Made by a program: the position numbers and the translations under genes. The notes under the pieces are model-generated. The model made no database searches, was not told the origin of the DNA, and saw nothing but the letters and a program-made list of their open reading frames with translations. Shown in pieces: positions 33,678 through 56,666 of a DNA stretch of 64,000 bases. Source of the stretch: Erythrobacter sp. (GTDB taxonomy: Bacteria > Pseudomonadota > Alphaproteobacteria > Sphingomonadales > Sphingomonadaceae); contig NZ_CP050265.1 in assembly GCF_011765465.1 (NCBI RefSeq), forward strand, positions 806,001-870,000, given 5' to 3'. Within the stretch, counting starts at the first letter, position 1; every line of letters starts with the position of its first letter.

Positions 33678-33693
33678 AGTGACGGGAAAGAAA

Positions 33694-35415
33694 ATGTCCG
33701 AACGCTTCGACAAGTCGAAACTGCCCAGCCGCCACGTCTCGGTCGGCCCCGAGCGCGCGCCGCACCGCTCCTATTACTACGCGATGGGCATGACCGAGGA
33801 GGAGATCGCACAGCCCTTCGTCGGCGTGGTCAGCGCAGGGAACGACAGCGCGCCGTGCAATACGACCCTGAACGCGCAGGCCGACATCGCGCGCGAAGGC
33901 GTGATCGCCGGGGGAGGGACGCCGCGGCGCTTCAACACGATTACCGTGACCGACGGGATCGCGATGGGCCACCAGGGCATGAAAAGCTCGCTCGTCAGCC
34001 GCGAGGTGATCGCGGATTCGGTCGAAGTTTCGGTGCGCGGCCATTGTTATGATGCGCTGGTGGGCTTCGCGGGCTGCGACAAGAGCCTGCCGGGCATGAT
34101 GATGGCGATGCTGCGGCTGAACGTGCCCTCGATCTTCGTATATGGCGGCTCGATCCTGCCCGGCACCTACAAGGGCGAGGACGTCACCGTTGTCGACGTG
34201 TTCGAGGCGGTCGGCCAGCACGCGGCGGGCAATTGCCCCCTGCAGGAGCTGATCGCGCTGGAAAAGGTCGCCTGTCCCGGCCACGGCGCCTGCGGCGGCC
34301 AGTTCACGGCCAACACGATGGCCTGCGTCGGCGAGGCGATCGGATTGTCATTGCCGAACAGCAACATGGCGCCCGCTCCTTACAAGTCGCGTGAGGAAAT
34401 CGCGCGCGCGGCGGGCAAGCAGGTGATGAACCTTGTCGAGAAGCAACTGCGACCGCGCGACATCGCCACGCGCGCCGCCTTCATGAACGCGGCGCGCGTC
34501 GTCGCGGCGACCGGCGGCTCGACCAATGCGGCCCTGCATCTTCCGGCCATGGCGAACGAGGCAGGGATCGATTTCGACCTGTTCGACGTGGCGGAAGTCT
34601 TCAAAACAACCCCTTACATTGCGGACCTGAAGCCCGGCGGGAAATATGTCGCCAAGGATATGCACGAGGCGGGCGGCGTCTACATGGCGCTGAAGACGCT
34701 GCTCGACGGCGGCTTCATCGATCCCGAACCGATCACCGTCACCGGCAAGACGCTGGGCGAGAACATCGAGGAGATCACCTGGAACCCCGACCAGAAGGTC
34801 TTCTACGAGGTCTCCAACCCGATCACCCCCACCGGCGGCGTCGTCGGGCTCAAGGGCTCGCTCGCGCCCGACGGGGCGATCGTCAAGGTTGCCGGCATGG
34901 CCCGGCTCCAGTTCTCCGGCCCAGCGCGGGTGTTCGATCGCGAGGAGGATGCTTTCGCGGCCGTGGAGGCGCGCGACATCGCGGAAGGCAGCGTGATCGT
35001 CATCCGCTACGAAGGGCCCAAGGGCGGCCCCGGAATGCGCGAGATGCTTTCCACCACCGCCGCGCTATACGGGCAGGGGATGGGCGAGAAGGTCGCGCTC
35101 ATCACCGACGGGCGCTTCTCGGGTGCGACGCGCGGCTTCTGTATCGGCCATGTCGGTCCGGAAGCGGCGGAATGCGGTCCCATCGCGCTGGTCGAGGACG
35201 GGGACATCATCTCCATCGACGCGGTCGCCGGCACGATCGACCTCGAAGTCGAGGAATCGGTGCTGGAAGAGAGGCGCAAGGCGTGGCAACCGCGCGAGCA
35301 TGATTACCAGTCGGGCACGCTCTGGCGCTATTCGCAAACCGTTGGCCCGGCGCGCTACGGCGCGCTCACCCATCCGGGGGCCAAGGCCGAGAAACACTGC
35401 TTTGCGGATATCTAG
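33694..35415 (+). CDS. ilvD: dihydroxy-acid dehydratase
   Basis: This 573-residue Fe-S dehydratase makes the 2-keto acids of the valine and isoleucine pathway. Cluster ligands are visible in [18 protein letters not shown] and [17 protein letters not shown]. The C-terminal [13 protein letters not shown] and GHVGPEAAE motifs are typical. The shorter length and first-Cys context fit the type that can carry a [2Fe-2S] cluster rather than the 616-residue E. coli type. ATG 33694 was chosen over GTG 33679 because homology starts there. Confidence 0.95.
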
Positions 35416-38345: not shown

Positions 38346-39140
38346 CTAGGCCCGCAGGGCGGCGAGGATCTGTCCGTCGAGCCAGTCGCGATGCTCGGGC
38401 CGGTCATAGGCATGGCCCGCGCCCTCGCAGCGCGCGATCCGCGGGTCGGCCGCATCCCAGTTTTCGGCAAAGACCTGCGCGGTGCGATCGGCGCTCGCCA
38501 GCAGGATGCGCACCGGCCCGGCGAATTCGGCCAGCCCCGCGCGCATCTCCTCGGCGAGGCTCGACGGGGCGGGGCCGGGCGCGAGCGACTTGACGAGGCC
38601 GCGACCGAGTTTCCTGAGGTCCACCCCGCCGCGCAGCAGGCGGGCCACCTCGCGCGGATTTCTGAGCTTTGCGGCATAGCGCGCGCGGATCGCGGAAGGG
38701 GGCGGGGTGGGATCGCTCTCGCCAGCTGCATCGCCGTCCTCCTCGATCGTCCAAGGGTTCGACAGGACCAGCGCATCGAACCCCTTGCCCTTCGCCAGCA
38801 TCAGCGCCGAGGCCGCGTCGCAATTGCCGAAGCCGACCACCCGGTCGACCTGCGGGGCGAGGGCTCGAAACGCCTCGAGCGCGGCGGCGATGTCACGCGC
38901 ACTATGGCGGAAACCCCGGTTCTCGCCCTCGCTATCGCCAATGCCTCGCCGGTCGAAGCGGAATACGGGAAAGCCCGCCCGCGCGATCCGGGCCGCGAGC
39001 AGCGACTGGCCGGAAAAGGCGCCCGCACGGATCTCGTTTCCGCCGCTGACGATCAGCAGCCCGGTCGTGCCCGGTGCGGTGTCGAGCGTGCCGGCGAGCT
39101 TGAGGCTTCCGCAGCCGAAATCGAGCGGGAGCCGGGTCAT
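38346..39140 (-). CDS. XrtA (exosortase A)-associated hydrolase 1
   Basis: This 264-residue alpha/beta-hydrolase-fold protein matches the exosortase-A-associated hydrolase 1 type. The features are LLIVSGGNEIRAGAFSGQ, FDRRGIGDSEGE, the nucleophile-elbow equivalent GFGNCDAASALML (no GxSxG Ser), and a late His in GAGHAYDRPEH. The Cys/Asp in place of Ser is typical of this subgroup. It probably acts on an activated acyl intermediate made by the ligase and carrier protein of the locus; this is inferred from context. ATG 39140 overlaps the hydrolase 2 stop (ATGA). Confidence 0.85.
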   Translation of the reverse strand: MTRLPLDFGCGSLKLAGTLDTAPGTTGLLIVSGGNEIRAGAFSGQSLLAARIARAGFPVFRFDRRGIGDSEGENRGFRHSARDIAAALEAFRALAPQVDRVVGFGNCDAASALMLAKGKGFDALVLSNPWTIEEDGDAAGESDPTPPPSAIRARYAAKLRNPREVARLLRGGVDLRKLGRGLVKSLAPGPAPSSLAEEMRAGLAEFAGPVRILLASADRTAQVFAENWDAADPRIARCEGAGHAYDRPEHRDWLDGQILAALRA

Positions 39141-39841
39141 TGTGCCTCCTCCTCCTCCGCCTCGCCGCCGACAAGGGCCGCCGCGATGATCCTTGCGATC
39201 GCGTCTGCCTGTGCCGCGTCGTGATCGGGTTCGGCGCGCAGCCACAGGCCGGGGCCGCCGAGCGCGCTCTGCGCAATGTGGTGCTGGTTGTCCGAGGGCA
39301 CGGGCTCGGCCTCGGCGAATTCGGCGAAGAAAGTCGCGCCGAGCGGCCAGCCGGCCAGCACCAGACCTTCGCGCCGCCCCGTCTCCATCAGCGCCTCGGA
39401 GCTTTCCTCGCGCCCTTCCTCGCGCGCGGCGATGGTGCGGGCGCGGATCATCCCGCGCAGCTGCTTCGGCCCGTTTTGGGGGGCATAGCGCCAGCAGGGA
39501 AGGCTCTCGGGTGCAAGCAGCGCTCCCGCCCGGATCGCAAGCACGTGGGTCGCCGCGAAAGCCTCCGTCGCCGCCTGCGCCGCCGCGCGCCAGTGCGCGA
39601 TGGTCTGGTCCTCCAGCGGTGCAAGGCTTTCATTGCAGCCGGGAAGGTCGGGCAGGAAACTGTCGATCCCGGCCTCGTCGAGCCGCCGCATGACCTCGAC
39701 GGTGAAATGGCGCAGCTTGTTCGCCTCGTCGAACCAGGCAGGCAGGACGATTAGCCGGGCCGCGCGTCCGCTATCGAAGGAGAAGAGCAGTTCCTCGCGC
39801 GTCGCGCCGTCGATAAGCGGGGCCGTCCAGGTGCCGATCAC
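39137..39841 (-). CDS. XrtA-associated hydrolase 2
   Basis: This 234-residue protein fits the second hydrolase-like family of exosortase A loci. It has a domain start RLIVLPAWFDEANKLRH, LPDLPGCNES, and VLAIRAGALLAPES where a catalytic elbow would be. The last lacks a Ser nucleophile, so it may not hydrolyse by the usual triad. The C-terminus is very acidic (GGEAEEEEAQ). The start is GTG 39841 with AGGAG seven bases upstream. It lies between the acyl carrier gene and hydrolase 1 in one minus-strand arm. Confidence 0.8.
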   Translation of the reverse strand: MIGTWTAPLIDGATREELLFSFDSGRAARLIVLPAWFDEANKLRHFTVEVMRRLDEAGIDSFLPDLPGCNESLAPLEDQTIAHWRAAAQAATEAFAATHVLAIRAGALLAPESLPCWRYAPQNGPKQLRGMIRARTIAAREEGREESSEALMETGRREGLVLAGWPLGATFFAEFAEAEPVPSDNQHHIAQSALGGPGLWLRAEPDHDAAQADAIARIIAAALVGGEAEEEEAQ

Positions 39842-39869
39842 GCAAGGCTCCTGTCAGTCGGGTGAAGGA

Positions 39870-40202
39870 TCAACCTTTGGCGAGCTTGGCCTCGGCGAAA
39901 GCGAGCAATCCGCCATAGGTTTCGAGCATTTCGCCGTCCACATCCTCGTCGTCGATCATGATGTCGAGCCGGTCCTCCATCTCGGTCAGGAGGCCCGCCA
40001 CCGCCATGGAATCGAGTTCCGGAAGATGGCCGAACAGGCCGGATTCCGGGCCCAGCGCCGCGGCCTGGGCGGCGTCGATGCCGAGCACGTCCGCGATGAT
40101 CGCCTTCAATTCGCTGTCGATGGCATTCCGGTCCATTCCCGTTCCCGTCTGGCTGCCTTCCGCATCGGCTGCGGCGGTGTTGATGGCCGGATTGGTGCTC
40201 AT
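39870..40202 (-). CDS. acyl carrier protein of the XrtA locus
   Basis: This 110-residue protein has an ACP core: DSELKAIIADVLGID, then the phosphopantetheine-attachment Ser in ELDSMAVAGLL, and an acidic helix (IMIDDEDVDGE). It should carry an acyl or aminoacyl group activated by the AMP-ligase of the locus. ATG 40202 has AAGGGA upstream but gives a 22-residue N-terminal tail; ATG 40136 would begin right at the conserved core. It is the second gene of the minus-strand arm. Confidence 0.88.
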   Translation of the reverse strand: MSTNPAINTAAADAEGSQTGTGMDRNAIDSELKAIIADVLGIDAAQAAALGPESGLFGHLPELDSMAVAGLLTEMEDRLDIMIDDEDVDGEMLETYGGLLAFAEAKLAKG

Positions 40203-40270
40203 TGCGATCGGATCCCTTGCTGGACGCGCGCAGCATTCGCAAAGGCGCGGCCCCTTCGTGGTGCGCGGCC

Positions 40271-41293
40271 TTAGCCAGCAGGCGGCGCGGGCGCAAGTTC
40301 CGGGACGTGCGCTTCGGTCAGGCGGCGCGCGGCGAGGCGGGCAAGATCGATCCAGGCGCGCGGGCGTGTCATCGCGAGACAGTCGATCTGGTAGCGCGGG
40401 CGCACTTCCTCCATCCAGTCGGCCTTGTAGGGCTGGTCGCCCGTGCCGAAATCGACCGTGGAGACCCCGTCGCGGTCGATGACGTGCTCGAACAGGGCGG
40501 CCGTCAAGGTCGTTCCGGCGGAGAGGTGGCGGTGGCTTTCGAGATGGGCGAGCTTGTGGATGAAGGCCGTGCCCGCCTCGACCGTCCAGCATTGCGCCGC
40601 GACCGGCTCCTCTTCGTGCCAGGCCATGCCGAAGCGTAGCCGTCCCGCCGCTCCCTCGGCCTGGGCGAAGTCGCGCAGCATCGCAGGTTGATCCTCCTCC
40701 GGCTTCCAGCTTTCGGCGTAGATGCGTTCGTAATGCGCCCACAGGTCGGGATCGAAATGGGTCAGCACACGCGTTTCGACCTTCTTCGCCTTGCGTTTCA
40801 ATGTGGTGCGCATCCGCCCCGGGCGACCCGCCCAGTATTCTGCGAAGCTGCGTCCGCGCACGTGCAGCACGTGGTTGAGATCGCACACGGTCACTTCCAC
40901 ACGCCACCCGGCGGCGCGAAAGGCGCGGGCGAGGCGGGAGGCCGAGCCGTCCTCCTCCGGCACGGGTGCGAGCGTCACACGGTGGCCTTTCGCCTTGAGC
41001 TGGCGCGCGATCTCGACCAGCAGGCGGTCGCCGCGCTCGCCGGGCGGGGCAAGCTGGCGCCAGGTGAAGCTGTACCAGTTGCGCAAGGGGGCGATCCGCC
41101 CGTCCTTTTCGGTCAGCGCAAGGGCGGCGCGCGTGTCGGCCTCGCCGGCGATCGCGATCAGCGGGACCAGCCCGGTCGCGGCGAGCAGTTCGTACCACTC
41201 TGCCCGGTCGAAGGGCGAGGGCGCGGGAAGACTGTGCGCGCCCGCAAGATCGCGCAGGGCGTTAACGCTATCGTGACAGGTCGATACGATCAT
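40271..41293 (-). CDS. GNAT/FemAB-like acyltransferase of the XrtA locus
   Basis: This 340-residue protein has a BioF2/FemAB-type GNAT domain. The central part shows YWAGRPGRMRTTLKRKAKKVE and ESWKPEEDQP; later come AFIHKLAHLESHRHLSAGT and DFGTGDQPYKADW, which line the acyl- or aminoacyl-binding groove in this superfamily. It probably transfers the group carried by the ACP to a sugar. It leads the minus-strand arm, starting 58 bases from the divergent ligase gene. A second FemAB-like gene lies at 51239. Confidence 0.83.
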   Translation of the reverse strand: MIVSTCHDSVNALRDLAGAHSLPAPSPFDRAEWYELLAATGLVPLIAIAGEADTRAALALTEKDGRIAPLRNWYSFTWRQLAPPGERGDRLLVEIARQLKAKGHRVTLAPVPEEDGSASRLARAFRAAGWRVEVTVCDLNHVLHVRGRSFAEYWAGRPGRMRTTLKRKAKKVETRVLTHFDPDLWAHYERIYAESWKPEEDQPAMLRDFAQAEGAAGRLRFGMAWHEEEPVAAQCWTVEAGTAFIHKLAHLESHRHLSAGTTLTAALFEHVIDRDGVSTVDFGTGDQPYKADWMEEVRPRYQIDCLAMTRPRAWIDLARLAARRLTEAHVPELAPAPPAG

Positions 41294-41351
41294 TCTACCC
41301 AGTCCGCTCCGCCTTCTTCGAACGCTCCATCGCTCCTTCTGGAAAAGCCCG

Positions 41352-42923
41352 ATGTCCAGCCTCTCCCAGCCCGAGACCGCCGGTAAAGCCCCTCCGTCGC
41401 CCGATCCCGCGCCGCGCCCGATCGACCATGTCGCGGTGCTGGCGGCGGAGCGGGGCAGGGGTTCGGACCCGGCGCTCGTCTTGCGCTCGGGGGTTCTAAG
41501 CCACGATGCGTTAAACTTGCGTGTTGACGATCTTGCCGCCTGGCTGGCGCGCGAAGTGCCCGAGAAGGGCGCTCGGGTGGCGACATGGGCGGCGAAGGGA
41601 GAGCTCGCCTGCCTCATGCCGCTCGCCGCGGCGCGCGCGGGGCTGGTCCACGTGCCGATCAACCCGCTTCTGAAGCGGATGCAGGTCGCCCATATCCTCG
41701 CCGACAGCGGGGCGCGGTTGCTGGTGGGCACGGGCTCACGGCTCGCTTCGCTGGAGGCGGGCGACGTGCCTGAAGGATGCGTTACGGTCGAGGAAGCCGA
41801 CGCCCTGACGGCTGCGAGTGAGGCGGGGGAGGGGCCGGGCCCGTCCGATGCCGACCCGGACGATCTTGCCGCGATCCTCTACACCAGCGGTTCGACCGGG
41901 CGGCCCAAGGGGGTGATGCTGAGCCATGCGAATATGTGGCTCGGTGCGGTGTCGGTCGCGCATTACCTCAAGCTGGCGCATGATGACGTGACGCTTGCGG
42001 TGCTGCCATTGAGCTTCGACTACGGGCAGAATCAGCTTTTCTCGACCTGGCTGGCCGGGGGAAGTGTCGTGCCGCTCGACTTCCTCTTCCCGCGCGACGT
42101 GGCAAATGCTTGCGCCAAGCACGGCGTGACGACGCTGGCGGCGGTCCCGCCGCTGTGGGTGCAGCTGGCCGAGATCGACTGGAAGACGGAGGAAAGCGCC
42201 CCGCTGCGACGCCTGACCAACAGCGGGGGCGCGCTGACGGTTGAGCTTGTGCAATCGCTCCGGGGGATTTTCCCGCAAGCCGATCTCTATCCGATGTATG
42301 GACTGACCGAGGCTTTCCGGTCGACCTTCCTTGATCCGGCTTTGGTCAAAAAACATCCGACATCAATGGGTAAGGCGATACCTTTCGCAGAGATTCTGGT
42401 GATTGGCGATTCCGGCGAAGTCGCCGCTCCGGGTGAGGAGGGCGAGCTCGTCCATTGCGGGCCGCTGGTGGCGCAGGGTTACTGGCAGGACCCCGAGCGA
42501 ACCGCCGAACGCTTCCGGCCAGCGCCTGCCGCCTCGCGTTATGGCGGGACCGCGGTGTGGTCGGGCGACCGGGTTCGACGCGATTCCGAAGGGTTGCTGC
42601 ATTTCGTCGCGAGGCGCGATGCGATGATCAAGAGCGCGGGCAACCGCATCTCCCCGCAGGAGGTGGAGGAGGCCGCGCTCGCGACCGGCCTTGCAACCGA
42701 GGCGGTGGCATTGGGCGTGCCGGATCCCCGGCTCGGGCAGGCGGTCCACCTGGTCGTGCGCGGGCCGGGCGATGCCGATGCGCTCGCCAAGGCGCTCAAG
42801 ACTGCGCTGCCCAATTTCATGCAGCCCGCCGTCATTCACTGGCGCGAAGCCCTGCCGCTCAATCCCAATGGCAAGATCGACCGCACCGCGCTCGCCGCCG
42901 AACTCAAGGACACCGCCGCATGA
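41352..42923 (+). CDS. XrtA-associated acyl-CoA ligase, AMP-forming
   Basis: This 523-residue ANL-superfamily enzyme adenylates a carboxylic or amino acid and probably loads the ACP encoded on the other strand. Motifs are YTSGSTGRPKGVMLSH, PMYGLTEAFRSTFLDP, WSGDRVRRDSEGLLHFVARRDAMIK, and LNPNGKIDRTAL with the catalytic Lys. Order and context match the exosortase-A-associated AMP-ligase family. It opens the plus-strand arm and overlaps the decarboxylase by ATGA (42920-42923). Confidence 0.9.
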   Translation: MSSLSQPETAGKAPPSPDPAPRPIDHVAVLAAERGRGSDPALVLRSGVLSHDALNLRVDDLAAWLAREVPEKGARVATWAAKGELACLMPLAAARAGLVHVPINPLLKRMQVAHILADSGARLLVGTGSRLASLEAGDVPEGCVTVEEADALTAASEAGEGPGPSDADPDDLAAILYTSGSTGRPKGVMLSHANMWLGAVSVAHYLKLAHDDVTLAVLPLSFDYGQNQLFSTWLAGGSVVPLDFLFPRDVANACAKHGVTTLAAVPPLWVQLAEIDWKTEESAPLRRLTNSGGALTVELVQSLRGIFPQADLYPMYGLTEAFRSTFLDPALVKKHPTSMGKAIPFAEILVIGDSGEVAAPGEEGELVHCGPLVAQGYWQDPERTAERFRPAPAASRYGGTAVWSGDRVRRDSEGLLHFVARRDAMIKSAGNRISPQEVEEAALATGLATEAVALGVPDPRLGQAVHLVVRGPGDADALAKALKTALPNFMQPAVIHWREALPLNPNGKIDRTALAAELKDTAA

Positions 42924-44146
42924 AGCCCGTCGGCCCGATCCCCCCCGGCTACGAGACGCTGGACGGCGAACTCGCCATTTCCGGCCGCACGGCGAGCGCG
43001 CTGGTCGACGGAGCGGGCGGCACTCCGCTGTTCGTCTATTCGCGCGCGCTCCTGAGCAAGCGCGTCGCCGACCTGCGCAAAGCCCTGCCGGAGCGGATCG
43101 GGGTCAATTACGCGGTCAAGGCCAACCCCATGGCCGAGGTCGTCGCCCACATGGAGCCGCTGGTGGACGGTTTCGACATCGCCTCCTCGGGCGAACTCGC
43201 GATCCTTCAGCGCGTGGGCATCGACCCGGCCCGCATCAGCTTCGCCGGGCCGGGCAAGCGCGACGACGAACTCGAAGCCGCGATCGCCGCCGGGGTCACG
43301 CTCAATTGCGAATCCGCCGGCGAGGCGGCGCGGTCGCTCGCGATCGGCGAGCGGCTCGGCAAGGCACCGCGCATCGCGATCCGGGTCAATCCCAGTTTCG
43401 AGCTCAAGGGCTCGGGCATGAAGATGGGCGGCGGGGCCAAGCAGTTCGGGGTCGATGCGGAGAAAGTGCCCGCATTGGCCCGCAACGTCATCGGCGAAGG
43501 AGCCGAATGGCGCGGCCTCCATATCTTCACCGGCAGCCAGGCGCTGAGCGCAGAAGCCATCGCAGAAACGCAGGGCAACGTCTTGAAACTGGCTGCGGAA
43601 CTTGCCGAGGAGATCGGCCACGGTCTGCCCAAGCTCAACATGGGCGGCGGTTTCGGCATACCCTATTTCCCCGGCGACGAACCGCTCGACCTCGTCGCCG
43701 TGGGCGCGGCGCTCGCGGAGCGGGTCGCGCACCTGCCGCCGGTGCTCGCCGAAACCGAACTCTGCCTTGAACTCGGGCGCTATCTCGCGGGCGAGGCGGG
43801 GGTCTACCTGTGCCGCGTCATCGACCGCAAGGAGAGTCACGGCGTGACCTATCTCGTCACCGATGGCGGACTCCACCACCAGCTTGCCGCCTCTGGCAAT
43901 TTCGGGACCGTGGTGCGGCGCAATTACCCTTCGGCCATCGCAACCCGCTATGGCGAGGAACCGGTGGAGGAGGTCAACATCGTCGGCTGCCTTTGCACCC
44001 CGCTCGACCGGCTCGCCGACCAGGCGATGATGCCGCGCGCGGATGTCGGCGACATCGTCGCGGTGTTCTGCGCCGGGGCGTATGGCGCGACCGCTTCGCC
44101 GAGCGCCTTCCTCGGCCACGGTCCGGCACGCGAACTGGTGGTCTGA
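42920..44146 (+). CDS. XrtA-associated PLP-dependent (DapDC-like) decarboxylase
   Basis: This 408-residue fold-type III decarboxylase resembles diaminopimelate/ornithine decarboxylases. PLP Lys is in NYAVKANPMAEV; other motifs are FDIASSGELAIL, HIFTGSQAL, the glycine-rich LNMGGGFGIPY, ELGRYLAGEAG, and VGCLCTPLDRL with the active-site Cys. It may supply an amine or amino acid for the carrier/ligase system. Its start overlaps the ligase stop, so the two enzymes probably work in sequence. A palindromic terminator-like element follows. Confidence 0.92.
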   Translation: MKPVGPIPPGYETLDGELAISGRTASALVDGAGGTPLFVYSRALLSKRVADLRKALPERIGVNYAVKANPMAEVVAHMEPLVDGFDIASSGELAILQRVGIDPARISFAGPGKRDDELEAAIAAGVTLNCESAGEAARSLAIGERLGKAPRIAIRVNPSFELKGSGMKMGGGAKQFGVDAEKVPALARNVIGEGAEWRGLHIFTGSQALSAEAIAETQGNVLKLAAELAEEIGHGLPKLNMGGGFGIPYFPGDEPLDLVAVGAALAERVAHLPPVLAETELCLELGRYLAGEAGVYLCRVIDRKESHGVTYLVTDGGLHHQLAASGNFGTVVRRNYPSAIATRYGEEPVEEVNIVGCLCTPLDRLADQAMMPRADVGDIVAVFCAGAYGATASPSAFLGHGPARELVV

Positions 44147-44277: not shown

Positions 44278-44320
44278 GGGCCGGATGGTGCAGGTCGCTC
44301 CTGCACGGATCGTGCGGCCC
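44278..44320 (+). other. nested hairpin in the leader of the EpsL gene
   Basis: An outer stem GGGCCG/CGGCCC (44278-44283 with 44315-44320) encloses an inner perfect stem GTGCAGG/CCTGCAC (44288-44294 with 44300-44306, five-base loop). It ends 30 bases before the EpsL start codon and may be a regulatory RNA structure or an operator. Confidence 0.45.
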
Positions 44321-44350
44321 GTCGCAGTCACGGCCCGAGGACCAGTATCG

Positions 44351-45016
44351 ATGTTTTCCAACCCGCTCTTTTCTGTTCCGCCCCAGGCTCGGCTCGCGCG
44401 GCCCATCGGCCTCATCGGCGTGTCGCTGGCCCTCGCCGCTTGCGCCGGGACCGGCCCGGAACTGCCGCCCGCGACCTACACCGCCGCGGCCGAACAGCCT
44501 TCGGAGGAATACCGCATCGGCCCGCTCGACGACATCACCATCCACGTCTGGCGCAACCCGGAATTGAGCGCGGAGAAGGTCAAGGTCCGCCCCGACGGGC
44601 GGCTGACCATCCCGCTGGTGCAGGACATCCCGGCGGTCGGCAAGACCGCGACCGAACTACAGGATTACATCGCGGGCGAACTCGCCCAGTATATCGAGCA
44701 GCCGATCGTTTCGGTGATCGTCAACACGCCCGGCGGAACCTACGACCAGCGGGTGCGCGTCGTCGGCTCGACCGAACAGCCCGCTTCGCTTCCCTACCAG
44801 GCCAACATGACCGTGCTCGATGCGATGATCGCCGTCGGGGGCCTCGGCGAATTCGCCAGCGGCAACCGCGCCAAGCTGATCCGGCTCGACCGCGAAAGCG
44901 GCACGCAGAAGGAATACCGCCTGCGCCTCGCCGACCTGCTCAAGCGCGGCGATGCGAGCGCCAATGTGATGCTGCGGCCGGGCGATACGATCATCATTCC
45001 GGAGAGCCGCTTCTAA
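44351..45016 (+). CDS. XrtA-associated polysaccharide export lipoprotein (EpsL/Wza type)
   Basis: This 221-residue outer-membrane polysaccharide export protein has a lipoprotein signal (IGLIGVSLALAAC, lipobox LAAC). The export domain starts at YRIGPLDDITIHVWRNPELS and includes GRLTIPLVQDIPAVGKTATELQ; an SLBB-like part follows with AVGGLGEFASGNRAKL and LRPGDTIIIPESRF. It should form the outer-membrane channel for the polysaccharide. ATG 44351 has GAGGA nine bases upstream; ATG 44285 lies inside the leader hairpin and is rejected. Confidence 0.92.
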   Translation: MFSNPLFSVPPQARLARPIGLIGVSLALAACAGTGPELPPATYTAAAEQPSEEYRIGPLDDITIHVWRNPELSAEKVKVRPDGRLTIPLVQDIPAVGKTATELQDYIAGELAQYIEQPIVSVIVNTPGGTYDQRVRVVGSTEQPASLPYQANMTVLDAMIAVGGLGEFASGNRAKLIRLDRESGTQKEYRLRLADLLKRGDASANVMLRPGDTIIIPESRF

Positions 45017-45031
45017 CGGGGCGCCGGGCGA

Positions 45032-46555
45032 ATGGACGAACTTTTCGACGAGGTGCGCGCGGCGCTGTGGTCGGTCTGGCACCGGCGCTGGATCGCGATC
45101 GCGGTTGCCTGGGGGGTGTGTCTGCTGGGCTGGCTCGTCGTTGCGCTGATTCCCAATTCCTACGAATCCAAGGCGCGGATCTACGTCGATGTCGAGGATG
45201 TCCTGTCCGAACAGCTCGGCATCGCGGGCGACGGTCGCGAGGAAATCATGCGGGTGCGCCAGACGCTCGCCAGCAATGTGAATCTCGAACGGGTAATCAA
45301 AGGCACGCGGCTCGGCGAAGGGATTTCGACCCGGGGCGAGATGGACAACGCGATTGCCGACCTGTCGAAACGGGTCGCTGTGCAGAGCGAGGAGGACAAC
45401 CTCTTCGCTATCACCGCGACGGTCGGCAAGAGCGACCTTTCCGACGCCGAGAACGCGGTGCTGGCGCGCAATGTCGTGCAGAAGCTGCTCGACATCTTCC
45501 GCGAGGAACACATTGCTGGCAACCGGGCGGGGATCGACCAGGCGCTGGCCGAACTCGATTCCCAGCTCGAGGAACGCAAGGCCGAACTCGAGGCGGCGGA
45601 GGAGCGCCGCCTGTCCTTCGAGGCGCAGTATCCCGAACTCATCGGCGGCTCGCAGACTCTGTCGAGCAAGGTCCAGCAGGCGCGCACCGAATTGCGCGAC
45701 GTCGAGGCCGATCTCGCCGCCGCGCAGAGTGCGCTGGCCGCGATCGAAGGGCAGATCTCCGGCACGCCGCGCACCATCGTCACGCCCGGAGCGGCGACGG
45801 GGCCGCGCGGGGCGCTGATGCAGGCGCAGGCGCAGCTCGCCGAATTGCGCTCGCGCGGGCTGACCGACGAACATCCCGACGTGGTGGCGACGAAGCGCCA
45901 GGTAGATCTCCTCGCCAGGGCGGCGGCTGCGAGCGGGGCCGAGGACGCGGGCGGCACGCCGAACCCGGCCTATACCTCGCTCATCGCGATCCGTGCAGAC
46001 CGGCAGGCGGCGGTCGAATCGCTCCAGGCGCGCCGCGCGGCGCTGCAATCGACTCTCGCCGGGCTGATGGCGAGCCAGGCCAGCGAGCCGGCGATCGCGG
46101 CCGAGGCGAACCGCATCAGCCGCGACTACGACGTGCTGCGCAAGAATTATGAGGATCTTCTCCAGAACCGCGAGGAAATCCGCACCCGCGGCGACGTGGT
46201 GGACGAGACGAGCCAGTACAAGTTCGACCTGATCGACCCGCCGGTCGTGCCCCAGAAGCCCGCCGCGCCCAATCGCCCCGTGCTGCTGCTGGGCGTGCTG
46301 GTCGTCGGTCTCGGCGCGGGCGCGGGGGTGGCCTGGGCGCTCGGCCAGCTGCGCTCGGGCTTCGCCACGCCGCAGAAGCTCGAACGTGCTTTCGACCTGC
46401 CGGTGGTGGGCGCGATCTCGCTGACCCTTTCGGATGCCGCGAAGGCGCTGGAACGACGCAGGCTCAAGCAATTCGCCGGCGCCTGCGCGGGGCTCGGCGC
46501 GATATTCGTGATCCTGCTCGCGATCGAGGTCGTCTCGGTCGGGACGGTGGCGTGA
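45032..46555 (+). CDS. XrtA-system chain-length determinant (Wzz-like)
   Basis: This 507-residue inner-membrane copolymerase controls glycan chain length and partners the kinase encoded next. It has an N-terminal helix (IAIAVAWGVCLLGWLVVALI), a periplasmic domain starting SKARIYVDVEDVL, long coiled coils (QALAELDSQLEERKAELEAA and further), and a proline-rich helix (DPPVVPQKPAAPNRPVLLLG). A last helix lies near FAGACAGLGAIFVILLAI. The kinase domain is not fused. It starts 15 bases after the EpsL gene. Confidence 0.92.
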   Translation: MDELFDEVRAALWSVWHRRWIAIAVAWGVCLLGWLVVALIPNSYESKARIYVDVEDVLSEQLGIAGDGREEIMRVRQTLASNVNLERVIKGTRLGEGISTRGEMDNAIADLSKRVAVQSEEDNLFAITATVGKSDLSDAENAVLARNVVQKLLDIFREEHIAGNRAGIDQALAELDSQLEERKAELEAAEERRLSFEAQYPELIGGSQTLSSKVQQARTELRDVEADLAAAQSALAAIEGQISGTPRTIVTPGAATGPRGALMQAQAQLAELRSRGLTDEHPDVVATKRQVDLLARAAAASGAEDAGGTPNPAYTSLIAIRADRQAAVESLQARRAALQSTLAGLMASQASEPAIAAEANRISRDYDVLRKNYEDLLQNREEIRTRGDVVDETSQYKFDLIDPPVVPQKPAAPNRPVLLLGVLVVGLGAGAGVAWALGQLRSGFATPQKLERAFDLPVVGAISLTLSDAAKALERRRLKQFAGACAGLGAIFVILLAIEVVSVGTVA

Positions 46556-46565
46556 GGAGGAGCGG

Positions 46566-47540
46566 ATGACCGAACATCGCAGGATCACGCCTCCTTCGGG
46601 CGAGCCTGAGGGCCGCAAGCGGCGCTCGCTGATCGAGCGGGCGGGGGATGTCTTCGGGACCGACCGGCTCGGCCCGTTCGCGGTTCCGCGCGACCTGCCG
46701 GAGCCGCGGCGACCCGTTGCCGACCCTGCACCACCCGAGCAGCCCGCACGGGCCCCTGCGGGCGACCTCGGCCCGGCCGCGCCACCGCCGCGCGTCGAAC
46801 CTGCGGTTGCGCTCGCCGGCCCGCGCCAGTCGGTCGACCGCGAGCGGCTGCGCGACGAAGGTCTCATCGTTCCCGAGGAACCGGTGACCGGCCAGCTCGA
46901 GGAATTTCGTATCGTCAAGCGCGAGCTGCTTGCCGAAGCGCGCGGGGCGGACGATCCGCTGGCGCGGCGGATCCTCGTGTGCTCGCCTCATCCGGGCGAG
47001 GGCAAGACCTATTGCGCGGCCAATCTCGCCATTGCCATGGCCGCGACCCGTGACATCGAGGTCGTGCTGGTCGATGCCGACACGGTCAAGCCGTCTGTCA
47101 CCCAGCGGTTCGGGATCGAGGGCGGGCCGGGGCTCTTGGACGTGCTCGCCGATCCCGCGATCCGTCCCGAAAGCTGCGTGATCCGCACCGATATCGAAGG
47201 GCTCTTCGTCCTCCCTTCAGGCAGCGCCACTTCGCGCGATTCCGAATATCTCGCGAGCGCGCGGACCGGCGAAGTGCTCGACCGCCTGACCCGCGGCGCG
47301 CCCAATCGCATCCTCATCTTCGACACGCCCCCCGCGCTCGCCGCCTCGCCCGCGGCCGAGCTCGCGCGCCATGTCGGACAGGCGCTGCTGGTGGTGCGCG
47401 CCGATGAAACCAGCCGCGCCGCGCTCGAAGATGCACGCCAGCTGCTTTCGGCCTGCCCGGACATCAAGCTGCTGCTCAACGCCGCGCGCTACAGCCCTTC
47501 AGGCCGACGCTTCGGCGATTACGGGAAAGCGAGGGACTAG
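46566..47540 (+). CDS. XrtA-associated tyrosine autokinase (BY-kinase)
   Basis: This 324-residue protein has a disordered proline/arginine-rich N-terminus (about 1-100) and a bacterial tyrosine-kinase domain. Walker A is SPHPGEGKTYCAANLA, Walker A' is VVLVDADTVKPSV and Walker B is ILIFDTPPA. It should phosphorylate its own C-terminal tyrosines to gate export with the Wzz-like protein. The C-terminal tail is short and has only two tyrosines (ARYSPSG and GDYGKARD) instead of the usual tyrosine cluster. Confidence 0.9.
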   Translation: MTEHRRITPPSGEPEGRKRRSLIERAGDVFGTDRLGPFAVPRDLPEPRRPVADPAPPEQPARAPAGDLGPAAPPPRVEPAVALAGPRQSVDRERLRDEGLIVPEEPVTGQLEEFRIVKRELLAEARGADDPLARRILVCSPHPGEGKTYCAANLAIAMAATRDIEVVLVDADTVKPSVTQRFGIEGGPGLLDVLADPAIRPESCVIRTDIEGLFVLPSGSATSRDSEYLASARTGEVLDRLTRGAPNRILIFDTPPALAASPAAELARHVGQALLVVRADETSRAALEDARQLLSACPDIKLLLNAARYSPSGRRFGDYGKARD

Positions 47541-47544
47541 GCTC

Positions 47545-49164
47545 ATGCGCCCGATGCTTCTCGCCCTTTCTGTCCTTACCGGCCTGGCCGCCGCTGCCCC
47601 GGCCCATGCCCAGGACAACCGCCAGGACACGGCCGACGGGCGCACTTTCGTGCGGCCCTATATCGAAGTCGGCCAGGTCCTTTCGGCCGAGCTGTCGCCG
47701 GGCGACGACGTACTCACATTCACTCAGGTCGCCGCTGGGGTCGATGCCAACCGGCAGGGCCGCAATTCGGGCGTCTCGGTATCCCTGCGCTACGAACGCA
47801 ACATAGCCTGGGGCGACGACCAGGTCGACACCGAAACGCTGAGCGGGGTCGCGCGCGGCTATCTTTCGCTCGTCCCGCGCGCGCTGACGTTCGAGGCGGG
47901 CGGGCTCGCGAGCCGCACGCGGGTTGACGGCGGCGGGGGCGTCTCCAGCAACCCGCTGGTGCGCGAGGACGCGGAAAGCCAGATCTATTCGATCTATGCC
48001 GGGCCGACGCTCGCCACCAATGTCGGAGCGGTCGCCATCAACGGCTTCGCGCGGGTCGGCTACAACCGTTTCGAGACCGAGAACGCGGTGTTCGACAACG
48101 CTGGCAATGCCATCGACGTGTTCGACGACAGCGTGACCTATAACGGCCGCGTGACCGCCTCGACCCGCTCGGGCGAACCGCTTCCGGTCGGGCTCGCAGT
48201 GACGGGCGGGATCTTTCAGGAGGAGATCTCCAATCTCGACCAGCGCGTGCGCGATGCCTTCGTGCGCGCCGATGTCACCGTGCCGCTTACCCCCTCGCTC
48301 GCGCTGGTGGGCGGCGTGGGTTACGAGGACGTGGAAATTTCCAGCCGCGACGCGCTGCGCGATGCGAACGGCGATCCGGTGATCGGAGCGGACGGGCGGC
48401 TCGTGACCGACACGGCAAGCCCGCGGCTTATCGCATTCGATGTAGACGGCCTGCTTTGGGACGTCGGCGTTCTGTGGCGCCCGAGTTCGCGCACCTCGCT
48501 TGAAGCGCGGGTCGGAGAGCGTTACGACTCAACGACTTACTACGGAAACTTCACCTATCGTCCGAATACCCGCAGCGCGCTGGCCATTGTCGCTTATGAC
48601 GGGGTGAGCGGCTTCGGCGGGGTGCTGAACAACGCGCTCGCCGGCCTGTCGAGCGACTTCACCGCTTTCCGCAATCCCGTCACCGGCGATTTCGGCGGCC
48701 TCGTGAGCGGCGGCGAAGGTCTCGGCACGATCGGCGCGCTCGGCTCGGTCCGCTCGGCGGCTTTCCGCGGCCGGGGTGTGCGGGCGAGCTACCAGCGCAC
48801 CATCGGCAGGCTCAATGCCGCGATCGGCGCGGGATACGACCGGCGCACCTTCATCGCTGCGGCCGGAACGCCGCTCGAAGCGGCGGACGGCCTGACGGAC
48901 GAAAGCTATTACATCACCGGCGCGCTCTCGCGACAGGTGGGCCAGCGCGCGATCGTCACCGCCAATGCCTATGTCAACTGGTTCGAAAGCGCGACCGACG
49001 GGGGCGATGTGACCGCCTTCGGCGCTTCGGCCTCCTATAACCGCTCGCTGACCCAGCGCCTGTCCGCCCGTGCCGCGCTGTCGGTCGATTATTTCGACAG
49101 CGAGTTCACCGCCGAGGACTTCGCCTTCGCCACGGCGCTGCTCGGCCTGCGCTACGATTTCTGA
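47545..49164 (+). CDS. XrtA/PEP-CTERM-system-associated outer-membrane beta-barrel protein
   Basis: This 539-residue protein has a signal peptide (MLLALSVLTGLAAAAPAHA) and many alternating beta strands, such as GVSVSLRYERNIAW and TSLEARVGERYDSTTYYG. It ends in ATALLGLRYDF, with the terminal Phe typical of barrels inserted by BAM. It belongs by position and pattern to the TIGR03016-like outer-membrane family of exosortase loci and may take part in passage of the glycan or sorted proteins. The start ATG 47545 is four bases after the kinase gene. Confidence 0.85.
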   Translation: MRPMLLALSVLTGLAAAAPAHAQDNRQDTADGRTFVRPYIEVGQVLSAELSPGDDVLTFTQVAAGVDANRQGRNSGVSVSLRYERNIAWGDDQVDTETLSGVARGYLSLVPRALTFEAGGLASRTRVDGGGGVSSNPLVREDAESQIYSIYAGPTLATNVGAVAINGFARVGYNRFETENAVFDNAGNAIDVFDDSVTYNGRVTASTRSGEPLPVGLAVTGGIFQEEISNLDQRVRDAFVRADVTVPLTPSLALVGGVGYEDVEISSRDALRDANGDPVIGADGRLVTDTASPRLIAFDVDGLLWDVGVLWRPSSRTSLEARVGERYDSTTYYGNFTYRPNTRSALAIVAYDGVSGFGGVLNNALAGLSSDFTAFRNPVTGDFGGLVSGGEGLGTIGALGSVRSAAFRGRGVRASYQRTIGRLNAAIGAGYDRRTFIAAAGTPLEAADGLTDESYYITGALSRQVGQRAIVTANAYVNWFESATDGGDVTAFGASASYNRSLTQRLSARAALSVDYFDSEFTAEDFAFATALLGLRYDF

Positions 49165-49179
49165 CCCGGAGCCACGCTT

Positions 49180-50328
49180 ATGTACGAGGAATTCTACGGC
49201 TTCAGCGCCCGCCCCTTCCAGCTCACGCCGGACCCGCAGTTCTGGTTCGAGAGCGTCACGCACAAGAAGGCGATGAGCTATCTCGGCTATGGTCTTGGCC
49301 AGGGCGAAGGCTTCATCGTCATCACCGGCGAAGTCGGCGCGGGCAAGTCCACGCTGGTCGCGCACCTCATGGAACGGATCGACCCCGAGGCGCTCACCGT
49401 CGCGCAGGTGGTCACCTCGTCGCTCGACGGAGAGGAGATCGTTCACGTTGTCGCACAAGCTTTCGGCCTTGCGGTCGAAGGGCATGACAAGGCCGCCGCG
49501 CTCGGCGCGATCGAGCGCTTTCTGCAGGACGAGGCGCGCGCCGGGCGGCGCTGCCTGCTGGTGGTCGACGAATGCCAGAACCTCGCGCTCGAAGCGCTCG
49601 AGGAACTGCGGATGCTGTCGAATTTCCAGCTCGGCTCGCATCCGCTGCTGCAGAGCCTGCTGCTCGGCCAGCCCGAATTCCGCCGCACGCTTGCCCATCA
49701 CCCCGGGCTAGATCAGCTGCGCCAGCGGATCATCGCCTCGCATCACCTCGCGCCGCTGGGCGAGGACGAGATCGAAGCCTATGTCACGCACCGCCTCATG
49801 CAGGTCGGATGGGACGCCCGCCCGGCGCTGGGCGAGGGGCTGGTGGAGAAACTCTACATCGCCTCCGAGGGAATCCCGCGGCGGGTTAACCGGCTGATGA
49901 ACCGCCTCCTGCTGCTCGGCGCGATCGAGGAAGAGGAAGCGCTCACTCCCGCCATGCTCGAAGCCGTGGTCGAGGAGATGGCGGGCGATGAAGCCGAAGG
50001 ATCGCAGGCCGAAGCGCCGAAGCCTGCGCGCTCGCACGCTCAGCCCGCCGAGCCGCAGGAAGCGGGCTCGGTCCCTCCGGAAGAGGTCGCCGCGCTTCTT
50101 GCGCAGCGCGATGCCCGCACTGCCGAGCTCGAAGCGGCGATCCTCGAATTGCAGGCTGCCGGGGCTTCGACCGGCGGGGATGATGCTCCGCGCGCGCTCG
50201 ACCCGGAGATTGCCGAAACGATCCGCAAGCTCGAAGCGCGGCTCGAGGAGCAGGAGCAGTCGCTGCGCCACGTGCTGACAATGCTGATCGAATGGTTCGA
50301 GGACGACGCCGCGCGGGAGGCGGCCTGA
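49180..50328 (+). CDS. XrtA-associated ATPase (ExeA-like)
   Basis: This 382-residue AAA-type ATPase opens YEEFYGFSARPFQLTPDPQFWF. Walker A is GEVGAGKSTL, Walker B is CLLVVDECQNL, and the sensor region includes HHLAPLGEDEIEAYVTHRL. The family is usually about 270 residues; here a further ~110 residues follow, with an Ala/Pro/Glu-rich linker and coiled-coil segments (ARTAELEAAILELQAAG and IRKLEARLEEQEQSLRHVL). It starts 15 bases after the barrel gene. The extension may mediate contact with other locus proteins. Confidence 0.9.
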   Translation: MYEEFYGFSARPFQLTPDPQFWFESVTHKKAMSYLGYGLGQGEGFIVITGEVGAGKSTLVAHLMERIDPEALTVAQVVTSSLDGEEIVHVVAQAFGLAVEGHDKAAALGAIERFLQDEARAGRRCLLVVDECQNLALEALEELRMLSNFQLGSHPLLQSLLLGQPEFRRTLAHHPGLDQLRQRIIASHHLAPLGEDEIEAYVTHRLMQVGWDARPALGEGLVEKLYIASEGIPRRVNRLMNRLLLLGAIEEEEALTPAMLEAVVEEMAGDEAEGSQAEAPKPARSHAQPAEPQEAGSVPPEEVAALLAQRDARTAELEAAILELQAAGASTGGDDAPRALDPEIAETIRKLEARLEEQEQSLRHVLTMLIEWFEDDAAREAA

Positions 50329-50330
50329 CC

Positions 50331-51242
50331 GTGTCCGCCGCGCTCGCCTCGCCCATGCCTGCCAACGGCCTGTCGGTCGATGTCGAGGAGTGGTTCCAGG
50401 TCGGCGCGTTCGAGCGCGTGATCGGGCGCGGCGAGTGGGACGGGATCGCGAGCCGGGTCGAGGGCAATGTCGACTTCCTTATCGACCTGTTCGCCGCAGC
50501 CGGGGTCCACGCGACATTCTTCACGCTGGGCTGGGTGGCGGAGCGGCAACCGGCGCTGATGCGGCGCATCATCGATGCGGGACACGAGATTGCCAGCCAC
50601 GGCTATGACCACGCGCGCGTCTTCACCCTTTCGCGCCGCGCCTTCGCCGAGGACATCGCAAGGGCGCGCCGCATCATCGAGGATGCTGCGGGCGTGGCTG
50701 TGAAGGGCTACCGCGCGCCGAGCTTTTCGATCGATGCGCGCAATCCATGGGCCTTTGAGGAACTGGCGGCGCAGGGCTATGCTTATTCCTCCAGCGTCGC
50801 GCCGGTGGTGCACGACCATTACGGTTGGCCCGAAGCGCCGCGCTTCGCCTTTCGTCCGGTTGCGGGCTCCGACCTCGTCGAGCTGCCGGTGACCACCGCC
50901 ATGCTCGGCCGCCGGCGGGTCGCGGCGGGCGGAGGCGGGTTCTTCCGCGTCCTGCCCTATGGCTTTTCACGCTGGGCGATCCGGCAGGTCAACCGCGTCG
51001 ATGAACGCCCGGCGATGTTCTATTTCCACCCCTGGGAGATCGATCCCGGCCAGCCGCGCGTGGGCAACGCCCCGCTGCGCTCGCGCCTGAGGCATTACAC
51101 CGGGCTCGAGGCGATGGCGGGCAAGCTGCGCCGCCTGCTGGGCGATTTCGCCTGGGGGAGGGTCGATGCGGTGGCGGAGCGCGAGGTGCTGCGGGCGGAA
51201 GACTGGCCGGTGGCATCCCCGCCCGCAAGGCAGGCCGCATGA
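50331..51242 (+). CDS. XrtA-system polysaccharide deacetylase
   Basis: This 303-residue protein has a NodB-homology domain. The metal/catalytic Asp is in LSVDVEEWFQ, the metal His pair in EIASHGYDHARV, and the later motif RAPSFSID and WEIDPGQPR complete the set. It probably removes acetyl groups from GlcNAc-type sugars of the exported glycan. The start is GTG 50331, two bases after the ATPase stop. It overlaps the FemAB gene by ATGA (51239-51242). Confidence 0.92.
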   Translation: MSAALASPMPANGLSVDVEEWFQVGAFERVIGRGEWDGIASRVEGNVDFLIDLFAAAGVHATFFTLGWVAERQPALMRRIIDAGHEIASHGYDHARVFTLSRRAFAEDIARARRIIEDAAGVAVKGYRAPSFSIDARNPWAFEELAAQGYAYSSSVAPVVHDHYGWPEAPRFAFRPVAGSDLVELPVTTAMLGRRRVAAGGGGFFRVLPYGFSRWAIRQVNRVDERPAMFYFHPWEIDPGQPRVGNAPLRSRLRHYTGLEAMAGKLRRLLGDFAWGRVDAVAEREVLRAEDWPVASPPARQAA

Positions 51243-52306: not shown

Positions 52307-52324
52307 GCCTTGGCGGAGGGCCGC

Positions 52325-56634: not shown

Positions 56635-56666
56635 GGAACAGACGGGGCGTGTCGGAGAACGGAACC

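Follow-up and report, generated by a model that had tools for sequence, protein, structure and literature searches.

Predicted beta-alanyl carrier-protein chemistry in an exosortase A-associated gene cassette of Erythrobacter sp.

In vicenistatin and fluvirucin synthesis, amino acids of the aspartate type are loaded onto a lone acyl carrier protein (ACP) and then decarboxylated, the precedents being VinN, VinL, and VinO and, for aspartate itself, FlvN (according to the relevant passages of PMC11284099). Here we analyze a six-gene cassette in a 64-kb stretch of the 3.3-Mb genome of Erythrobacter sp. (contig NZ_CP050265.1, positions 806001-870000; this whole stretch is called the window, and its G+C content is 0.64 to 0.72 in 2-kb steps). 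Like the VinN/VinL/VinO set and FlvN with its partners, the cassette has a stand-alone adenylation enzyme with an Asp/Ser/Arg pocket, a stand-alone ACP, and a pyridoxal phosphate (PLP) decarboxylase that is predicted to act on the loaded ACP. We call these three genes the trio. It differs from the VinN and FlvN cassettes in being linked to exosortase A (XrtA) or free-standing and in being widespread in a bacterial family, not part of an antibiotic cluster. Neither a VinM-like second amide-forming ligase nor a polyketide synthase was found among the genes annotated at 30252-62598; an AMP-binding protein at 21547-23148, 18 kb away, lies outside this VinM-type comparison. The trio would thus work like a starter cassette for beta-amino-acid macrolactams, apparently without being a member of that group.

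A second parallel is BtrK of butirosin side-chain synthesis, which also decarboxylates an amino acid on a carrier protein, the amino acid being glutamate as opposed to the aspartate predicted here; BtrJ, its partner ligase, is not known to be an AMP-forming enzyme. The gene set as a whole is the cassette that NCBIfam calls "exosortase A (XrtA) system-associated," an association already described. The original prediction, made from the sequence of the window, had held that the chemistry of this module is not established, which is true of its function, since families TIGR03098, TIGR03099, TIGR03100, and TIGR03101 are named without one, but not of the gene set itself. Window genes pass three of the four curated cut-offs. 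The cassette departs from these models ("hypoth_equivalog," functionless) in that hydrolase 2 scores far under its cut-off and the trio also exists without XrtA. The available portions of Haft 2006 (PMC1569441) make no mention of a ligase, decarboxylase, hydrolase, acyl carrier, amidotransferase, or TIGR03098. A search of open-licence PMC texts, in the portions available, met no description of the cassette or of an ACP-dependent route to beta-alanine, by which absence from print is not established.

The best explanation of the whole, to which we give a probability of about 0.55, is that the trio makes beta-alanyl-ACP and that the two hydrolases of the cassette pass it on in an XrtA-linked step. 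All of the evidence is computational. The association of the cassette with XrtA was known; new here are its division into two units, the VinN-like pocket, the mutual exclusion with PanD, and the Cys and Arg residues of the hydrolases. This reading offers concrete and cheaply testable chemistry for orphan families found in hundreds of genomes. If true, an ACP-dependent beta-alanine route would fill a published hole in the vitamin B5/coenzyme A (CoA) synthesis of sphingomonads, and the XrtA-tied part of the cassette, now set apart, would point towards the acceptor of exosortase sorting. The six genes are as follows (window positions).

38346-39140, minus strand: hydrolase 1 (TIGR03100), an alpha/beta hydrolase with a Cys nucleophile (Cys107, Asp218, His243)
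39137-39841, minus strand: hydrolase 2 (TIGR03101-like), alpha/beta-hydrolase fold, with Arg104 at the nucleophile place
39870-40202, minus strand: stand-alone acyl/aminoacyl carrier protein (ACP; PF00550), with a PELDSM phosphopantetheine site
40271-41293, minus strand: GNAT/FemAB-like transferase (PF13480)
41352-42923, plus strand: AMP-forming ligase (TIGR03098), divergent from the ACP side, with pocket residues D223/S291/R323
42920-44146, plus strand: fold-III PLP decarboxylase (TIGR03099), BtrK-like, with a CTPLD motif

All six are intact open reading frames (ORFs), and the start of the decarboxylase gene overlaps the stop of the ligase gene by 4 bases. The ligase scores 635.7 bits against TIGR03098 (cut-off, 592.35), the decarboxylase 578.8 bits against TIGR03099 (478.45), and hydrolase 1 214.9 bits against TIGR03100 (168.45), while the match of hydrolase 2 to TIGR03101 is weak (38.4 bits; cut-off, 202.75). 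The ACP scores 27.4 bits against PF00550 (20.8), and the GNAT/FemAB-like protein, which matched no NCBIfam family, scores 65.5 bits against PF13480 (22). The genes are real, with matches far above chance. This bears out the six kinds of protein that had been named from the sequence (ACP, AMP-ligase, PLP decarboxylase, two hydrolase-like proteins, and a FemAB-like transferase); the range then given for the module, 38346-42923, holds five of the genes, and the decarboxylase lies outside it.

Active sites of the trio

The full-length ligase matches many adenylation domains in the PDB, the best stand-alone enzyme among them being VinN (3wvn, 188.4 bits). The PDB chains that score above VinN are multidomain synthetases, 8xjz among them; linear gramicidin synthetase, taken by domain, gives 114.8 and 150.8 bits. 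For the fragment that covers the acyl pocket, VinN is the best PDB match (E = 1e-15; next, 2e-10). In the alignment, which has a gap of one residue between the first and second positions, ligase residues D223, S291, and R323 correspond to 246, 315, and 347 of the VinN chain. These chain positions are each offset by 16 from Asp230, Ser299, and Arg331, which we take to be the numbering of the VinN binding residues; Ser299 and Arg331 presumably hold the free carboxylate of 3-methylaspartate. The Asp of VinN-class enzymes binds the substrate amino group, as stated in a passage of PMC11284099. Across 118 ligases, the pocket has Asp in 117 (one gap), Ser in 107 or Thr in 11, and Arg in 118 (the alignments behind the residue counts contain the window, and certain genomes appear in them twice: L126 = G155, L132 = G127, L172 = G453, and perhaps others). 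None of seven other ligases compared from the same genome has the pocket Asp or Arg, and one has Thr in the Ser column. The ligase is therefore of the VinN type in having an amino-binding Asp and a carboxylate-binding Ser/Arg pair at the VinN positions, and we predict it to be an L-aspartate:ACP ligase that uses the side-chain carboxylate. The active-site evidence is consistent with an ACP-tethered amino acid and not with a fatty acid; a fatty acyl or CoA ligase is thought unlikely, given the pocket Asp and Arg. D-alanylation by a DltA/DltC-type system was rejected, the ligase scoring 147.8 bits against DltA model TIGR01734 (cut-off, 559.85).

The closest solved relatives of the decarboxylase are two BtrK entries (E = 1e-60), named L-glutamyl-[BtrI acyl-carrier protein] decarboxylase, followed by diaminopimelate (DAP) decarboxylases (1e-40). 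A CTPxD motif is common to BtrK and the decarboxylase family, its C, T, P, and D occurring in 124 of 124 aligned sequences, and the one DAP decarboxylase compared has CETGD. Both its greater closeness to BtrK and the replacement of CExxD by CTPxD (relative to that one enzyme) place the window protein with BtrK. Assignment as a lysine/DAP decarboxylase (LysA, TIGR01048) was rejected on the score (230.4 bits; cut-off, 297.9) and the motif mismatch. The role of the Glu in the CExxD-type motif of DAP decarboxylases underlies our suggestion that the loss of this acidic residue fits a substrate that ends in a thioester rather than an amino acid. In the ACP, the Asp-Ser of the phosphopantetheine site is kept in 113 of 113 sequences.

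Taken together, the VinN-like pocket, the BtrK-like decarboxylase, and the vicenistatin and fluvirucin precedents lead to the prediction that L-aspartate is converted to beta-aspartyl-ACP and then to beta-alanyl-ACP. That the trio forms beta-alanyl-ACP from aspartate is, on the sequence evidence, probable, and we infer from the same residues both aspartate as the substrate and decarboxylation on the carrier.

In four further loci (L057, L064, L065, and L068), neighboring ACP, ligase, and decarboxylase genes fall short of the XrtA-family cut-off, yet their products have the D/S/R pocket and an LCTxxD motif, so trio-like chemistry seems to be wider than the XrtA system.

Two units in the cassette

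The polysaccharide and exosortase genes that follow the decarboxylase gene are these.

44285-53551, plus strand: XrtA-type polysaccharide block (by NCBIfam: export protein, chain-length protein, Tyr kinase, outer-membrane protein, ATPase, deacetylase, FemAB protein TIGR03019, and glycosyltransferase stp1)
53505-54551, plus strand: exosortase A (XrtA, TIGR03109; 291 bits against a cut-off of 208)
54563-56461, plus strand: XrtA/PEP-CTERM system amidotransferase (TIGR03108, by NCBIfam)

XrtA and the cassette are thus in the same genome. The original prediction had placed the module inside a polysaccharide locus; polysaccharide genes do adjoin it, and the locus extends to XrtA and the amidotransferase. 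In a Sphingomonas isolate, insertions in a gene annotated "amidotransferase, exosortase associated" altered colony morphology (from a section of PMC11340318), and transposon-fitness data for sphingomonads may bear on the cassette.

We found that the ACP, ligase, and decarboxylase form one unit of the cassette and that hydrolase 1 belongs to a second, XrtA-linked unit. Of the 18 loci first found to have an above-cut-off decarboxylase, not counting the window, all 18 contain the ACP, 17 the ligase, 16 hydrolases 1 and 2, and 7 the GNAT gene. A larger set of 80 named loci was found via the decarboxylase, our marker for the trio, and therefore excludes genomes that lost every cassette gene; 18 loci with too little flank were left out. 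The trio is complete in all of the remaining 62. In 54 of them it is joined by the hydrolase 1, hydrolase 2, and GNAT genes, making all six, and 8 have the trio only. GNAT occurs in 54/54 named loci with hydrolase 1, in 0/8 trio-only loci, and, as a GNAT-like gene (L198), in 1/26 of the XrtA-less loci described below. Each polysaccharide gene from the export protein to the glycosyltransferase is within reach in 43 to 47 of the 54 hydrolase 1 loci. Among the eight trio-only loci, three have the ATPase, one has the deacetylase, and none has any other polysaccharide gene or the block within reach. A search of the eight whole genomes found neither XrtA nor hydrolase 1 over the cut-off in any of them (three carry another exosortase, at 114 to 128 bits); both were present in 4/4 comparison genomes searched whole.

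The same division is seen in an evenly drawn sample of 199 genomes of the family, which is free of decarboxylase-based selection (thresholds: E = 1e-90 for the decarboxylase, 1e-50 for XrtA, and 1e-30 for hydrolase 1). The decarboxylase was found in 169 genomes, XrtA in 130, and hydrolase 1 in 130, with all three in 124 and the decarboxylase alone of the three in 37. The decarboxylase is present in 129/130 genomes with XrtA and 40/69 without it. In 189 of the 199 genomes, hydrolase 1 and XrtA are either both present (125) or both absent (64); 5 genomes are discordant each way, and 4 of these 10 are less than 90% complete. Counted another way, hydrolase 1 occurs in 124 of the 129 genomes with the trio marker plus XrtA and in 6 of the other 70.

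From the 37 genomes with a decarboxylase and neither XrtA nor hydrolase 1, we read 26 loci, namely, those with listed places. The whole trio without hydrolase 1 is present in 24, and the polysaccharide block lies beside the trio whole in 1 and in part in 1. Genome G340 (L212, 9075-10854) has the polysaccharide block together with genes for the deacetylase, FemAB protein, glycosyltransferase, and amidotransferase. There is no exosortase gene between those for the glycosyltransferase and the amidotransferase, and searches of the genome found no XrtA at E = 1e-50 and no hydrolase 1 at E = 1e-30. In G340, therefore, hydrolase 1 goes with XrtA and not with the polysaccharide genes. No new conserved partner gene beside the trio was found in the 26 loci; other clusters present in at least 6 loci look like housekeeping genes, as judged by their first residues.

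On a tree of 98 loci, 12 changes of XrtA state are required, and well-supported branches force 8 of these (a first, earlier tree needed 6, with 5 forced); for the 98-locus tree, six distant rows had been removed beforehand, and the XrtA state of named loci was read from the presence of hydrolase 1 and of the block adjoining the trio, with 12 named genomes searched whole. For eight pairs of XrtA-less loci, ratios of nonsynonymous to synonymous substitution (dN/dS) are 0.10 to 0.31 for the ligase and 0.05 to 0.23 for the decarboxylase, and for seven pairs they are 0.04 to 0.50 for the ACP; these ratios are rough, with synonymous distances of 0.4 to 1.6. Since dN/dS is below 1, the trio genes are under selection in these genomes.

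Across 299 genomes of the phylum, 19 have the decarboxylase over the cut-off, 20 have XrtA, and 17 have both. Hydrolase 1 is over the cut-off in 16 and just under it in 1 (G126, 166 versus 168.45 bits), which are exactly the 17 genomes with both other genes; 12 of the 17 come from one family and are not independent. None of the five single-marker genomes (decarboxylase only, G107 and G155; XrtA only, G007, G015, and G267) comes near the hydrolase 1 cut-off, with 58 bits in G107, for a distant tandem protein, and 46 bits in G007. The XrtA polysaccharide loci of G007, G015, and G267 (L092, L093, and L094) belong to another family, and genome-wide neither the decarboxylase nor hydrolase 1 is over the cut-off. 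XrtA can thus work without the cassette.

These distributions bear on the proposal, made in the original prediction, of a single module that decorates the polysaccharide by adding an aminoacyl group to the glycan. It draws on the gene neighborhood, on the deacetylase and FemAB genes inside the same block, and on the 54 of 62 named loci with all six genes. We consider it unlikely in view of the trio standing without hydrolase 1 in 8/62 named and 24/26 XrtA-less loci, the near absence of the block there (within reach in 0/8 trio-only and 1/26 XrtA-less loci, with part in 1 more), and G340, which has the block and neither XrtA nor hydrolase 1. The small nonribosomal-like pathway envisaged there is partly supported: a carrier-protein route that activates and decarboxylates an amino acid agrees with the active-site residues and would be right in outline, but the glycan frame is too narrow for a trio that is common without XrtA. 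Because the trio occurs in many relatives without XrtA and mostly without a polysaccharide block, its product is of use beyond the locus.

PanD and a proposed source of beta-alanine

Beta-alanine is a building block of vitamin B5, and PanD (aspartate 1-decarboxylase) is the usual enzyme for making it. The predicted net product of the trio is the same, beta-alanine from aspartate, but PanD is an unrelated pyruvoyl enzyme that takes the free substrate and uses neither ATP nor a carrier. If the product of the trio is beta-alanine, trio-bearing relatives might do without PanD. In a first pass over 26 genomes, PanD was found in 0/14 with the decarboxylase and 5/12 without it. The idea was then tested on the family sample, which had been drawn beforehand: PanD is present in 0/169 genomes with the decarboxylase and 8/30 without it (Fisher P = 1.1e-7). 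By genus, the counts are 4/12 versus 1/84 (P = 7e-4), the single exception being genus g199, where PanD is in a genome that lacks the decarboxylase and the decarboxylase is in its two sister genomes. PanD was not found in the window's own genome. Both panB and panC adjoin panD in L219, L220, and L222; for L218 and L221, a single further neighbor was tested in each, and it is neither.

A published table shows relatives that have PanB and PanC and no known source of beta-alanine. In the accessible part of PMC7142369 (Table A2), Erythrobacter sp. SD-21, the source of trio-only locus L149, has PanB and PanC and no ADC, PYD2, PYD3, or GAD. All 14 Novosphingobium, Sphingobium, Sphingomonas, and Sphingopyxis rows there have PanB and PanC and no ADC or GAD, and 12 of the 14 have no PYD3; GAD is present in E. 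litoralis HTCC2594 and in NAP1. We tentatively propose, at odds somewhat short of even, that the trio product serves as a beta-alanine supply in sphingomonads, and we infer that this supply would feed CoA synthesis.

An alternative is that glutamate is the starting point and gamma-aminobutyryl-ACP, or another omega-aminoacyl-ACP, the product of the trio, made in a butirosin-like manner for decoration of a surface molecule, the PanD pattern being lineage history. BtrK, the closest solved relative of the decarboxylase, is named for glutamyl-ACP and speaks for this. The ligase pocket, however, matches VinN, a 3-methylaspartate enzyme, at three binding residues, and both the absence of PanD from 169/169 decarboxylase genomes and the retention of the trio in XrtA-less genomes would be left unaccounted for, so that we regard glutamate as an improbable substrate.

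Hydrolases and a possible XrtA-linked step

The original prediction had noted two hydrolase-like proteins without a classic Ser nucleophile, and the alignments confirm it. Hydrolase 1 has Cys107 in 78/78 sequences, window included, with Asp218 and His243 each in 77/78 (one gap each). Hydrolase 2 has Arg104 at the nucleophile place in 79/79, along with E39 (78/79), N41 (78/79), and R44 (79/79). AlphaFold2 models give an alpha/beta-hydrolase fold for both: that of hydrolase 1, an esterase/lipase fold, has a mean predicted local distance difference test score (pLDDT) of 85.5, with low confidence in stretch 136-147, and that of hydrolase 2 has a pLDDT of 93.8. The nearest folds are feruloyl esterases and lipases (template modeling scores of about 0.6 for hydrolase 1 and about 0.5 for hydrolase 2). 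Hydrolase 2 has no Pfam match at E = 0.001, its profile reached 16 relatives, and its counterparts passed the TIGR03101 cut-off in just 4 of the 22 genomes searched; despite the sub-cut-off score, it keeps the cassette position, the fold, and the Arg. The two hydrolases are fused in one ORF in G126 (L054). The hydrolase 2 plus hydrolase 1 pair also recurs in distant alpha/beta-hydrolase proteins with tandem domains, about 600 residues long, whose second domain has GxCSGA (Cys). Hydrolase 2 is probably a non-hydrolytic partner of hydrolase 1. Tandem pairs were seen in L082 to L088, L099, L100, and others, and in L091 a long, apparently membrane-spanning N-terminal part precedes the pair.

Among enzymes to which hydrolase 1 can be likened by description, CmaE and SyrC have a Cys nucleophile; LgnA, unlike hydrolase 1, has a Ser. 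These three are thioesterase-like or transferase-like enzymes that shuttle aminoacyl groups between carrier proteins (as given in part of PMC8748450). The restriction of hydrolase 1, in the phylum sample, to genomes with both decarboxylase and XrtA fits a step that passes the trio product to an XrtA-dependent acceptor, and we put XrtA-linked transfer by the hydrolases at even odds.

In the mechanism we propose, the ligase of the first unit would adenylate L-aspartate at the side-chain carboxylate and load the ACP, and the PLP enzyme would strip the alpha-carboxylate on the carrier to give beta-alanyl-ACP; in sphingomonads this unit would be a source of beta-alanine that stands in for the missing PanD. 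The second unit would consist of Cys hydrolase 1 and its Arg partner, hydrolase 2, usually with the GNAT protein in sphingomonads, and would take the beta-alanyl group from the ACP via a Cys thioester and transfer it in the XrtA-tied step.

Several points weigh against this mechanism. Where XrtA has been lost, the trio keeps neither hydrolase of the second unit that might release free beta-alanine, and spending ATP and a carrier protein on a simple amino acid is costly. BtrK acts on glutamyl-ACP, and the trio may conceivably convert glutamate to gamma-aminobutyrate instead. The case for a transferase role of hydrolase 1 consists of its Cys and its distribution. One XrtA-bearing locus (L044) has no ligase within 20 kb, and two of the 26 XrtA-less loci (L189 and L201) have ligase and decarboxylase with no ACP found nearby. 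Genus g225 (G382, G446, and G497) has XrtA and the decarboxylase, with hydrolase 1 not found at E = 1e-30; it is either an exception to the pattern or carries a diverged copy. The exclusion between PanD and the decarboxylase rests on five genera, with shared descent only roughly controlled. Nor are the two genes complementary throughout, since 22 of the 30 family genomes without the decarboxylase also lack PanD; these 22 would be auxotrophs or have another beta-alanine route.

A more specific version is that exosortase A needs an amine to take over the cleaved PEP-CTERM protein and that the cassette supplies this amine, the Cys hydrolase and its Arg partner passing the beta-alanyl group from the ACP to a surface acceptor whose free beta-alanyl amine is the transpeptidation nucleophile, the same beta-alanyl-ACP having been co-opted in sphingomonads as the beta-alanine source for CoA, with PanD lost and the trio kept after exosortase loss. 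It gains support from hydrolase 1 being present where trio and XrtA co-occur (17/17 in the phylum, 124/129 in the family), seldom otherwise (0/5, at or near the cut-off, and 6/70), and missing along with XrtA in G340, which retains the polysaccharide genes. We think it unlikely: three genomes of the phylum sample have a working XrtA and no cassette, and in genus g225 XrtA and the decarboxylase are present with no hydrolase 1 found.

N-acyl amino acid synthases are said to have been reported beside PEP-CTERM/exosortase genes by Craig, Cherry, and Brady in 2011. An ordinary fatty acyl-ACP system (AasR/AcpR-like, for sphingolipid synthesis) or an acyl supply for such synthases is very improbable: AMP-ligase and ACP pairs of this kind do occur in sphingomonads (a portion of PMC9386255) and a GNAT gene adjoins the ligase gene, but the ligase has a pocket Asp and Arg found in none of the seven other ligases of its genome with which it was compared, a PLP decarboxylase gene overlaps the ligase gene, no serine palmitoyltransferase is among the annotated locus genes, and the GNAT protein matches no NCBIfam model.

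Two neighbors of the cassette may be added. The ilvD gene (dihydroxy-acid dehydratase, window 33679-35412) is some 4.5 kb away from the ACP gene and is probably a housekeeping neighbor; its product makes the pantoate precursor. A crotonase of the PRK08788 family (window 56649-57593), distantly RpfF-like (196 of 550 bits), closes the polysaccharide block, and a copy of this gene is near the trio in 3 of the 8 trio-only loci.

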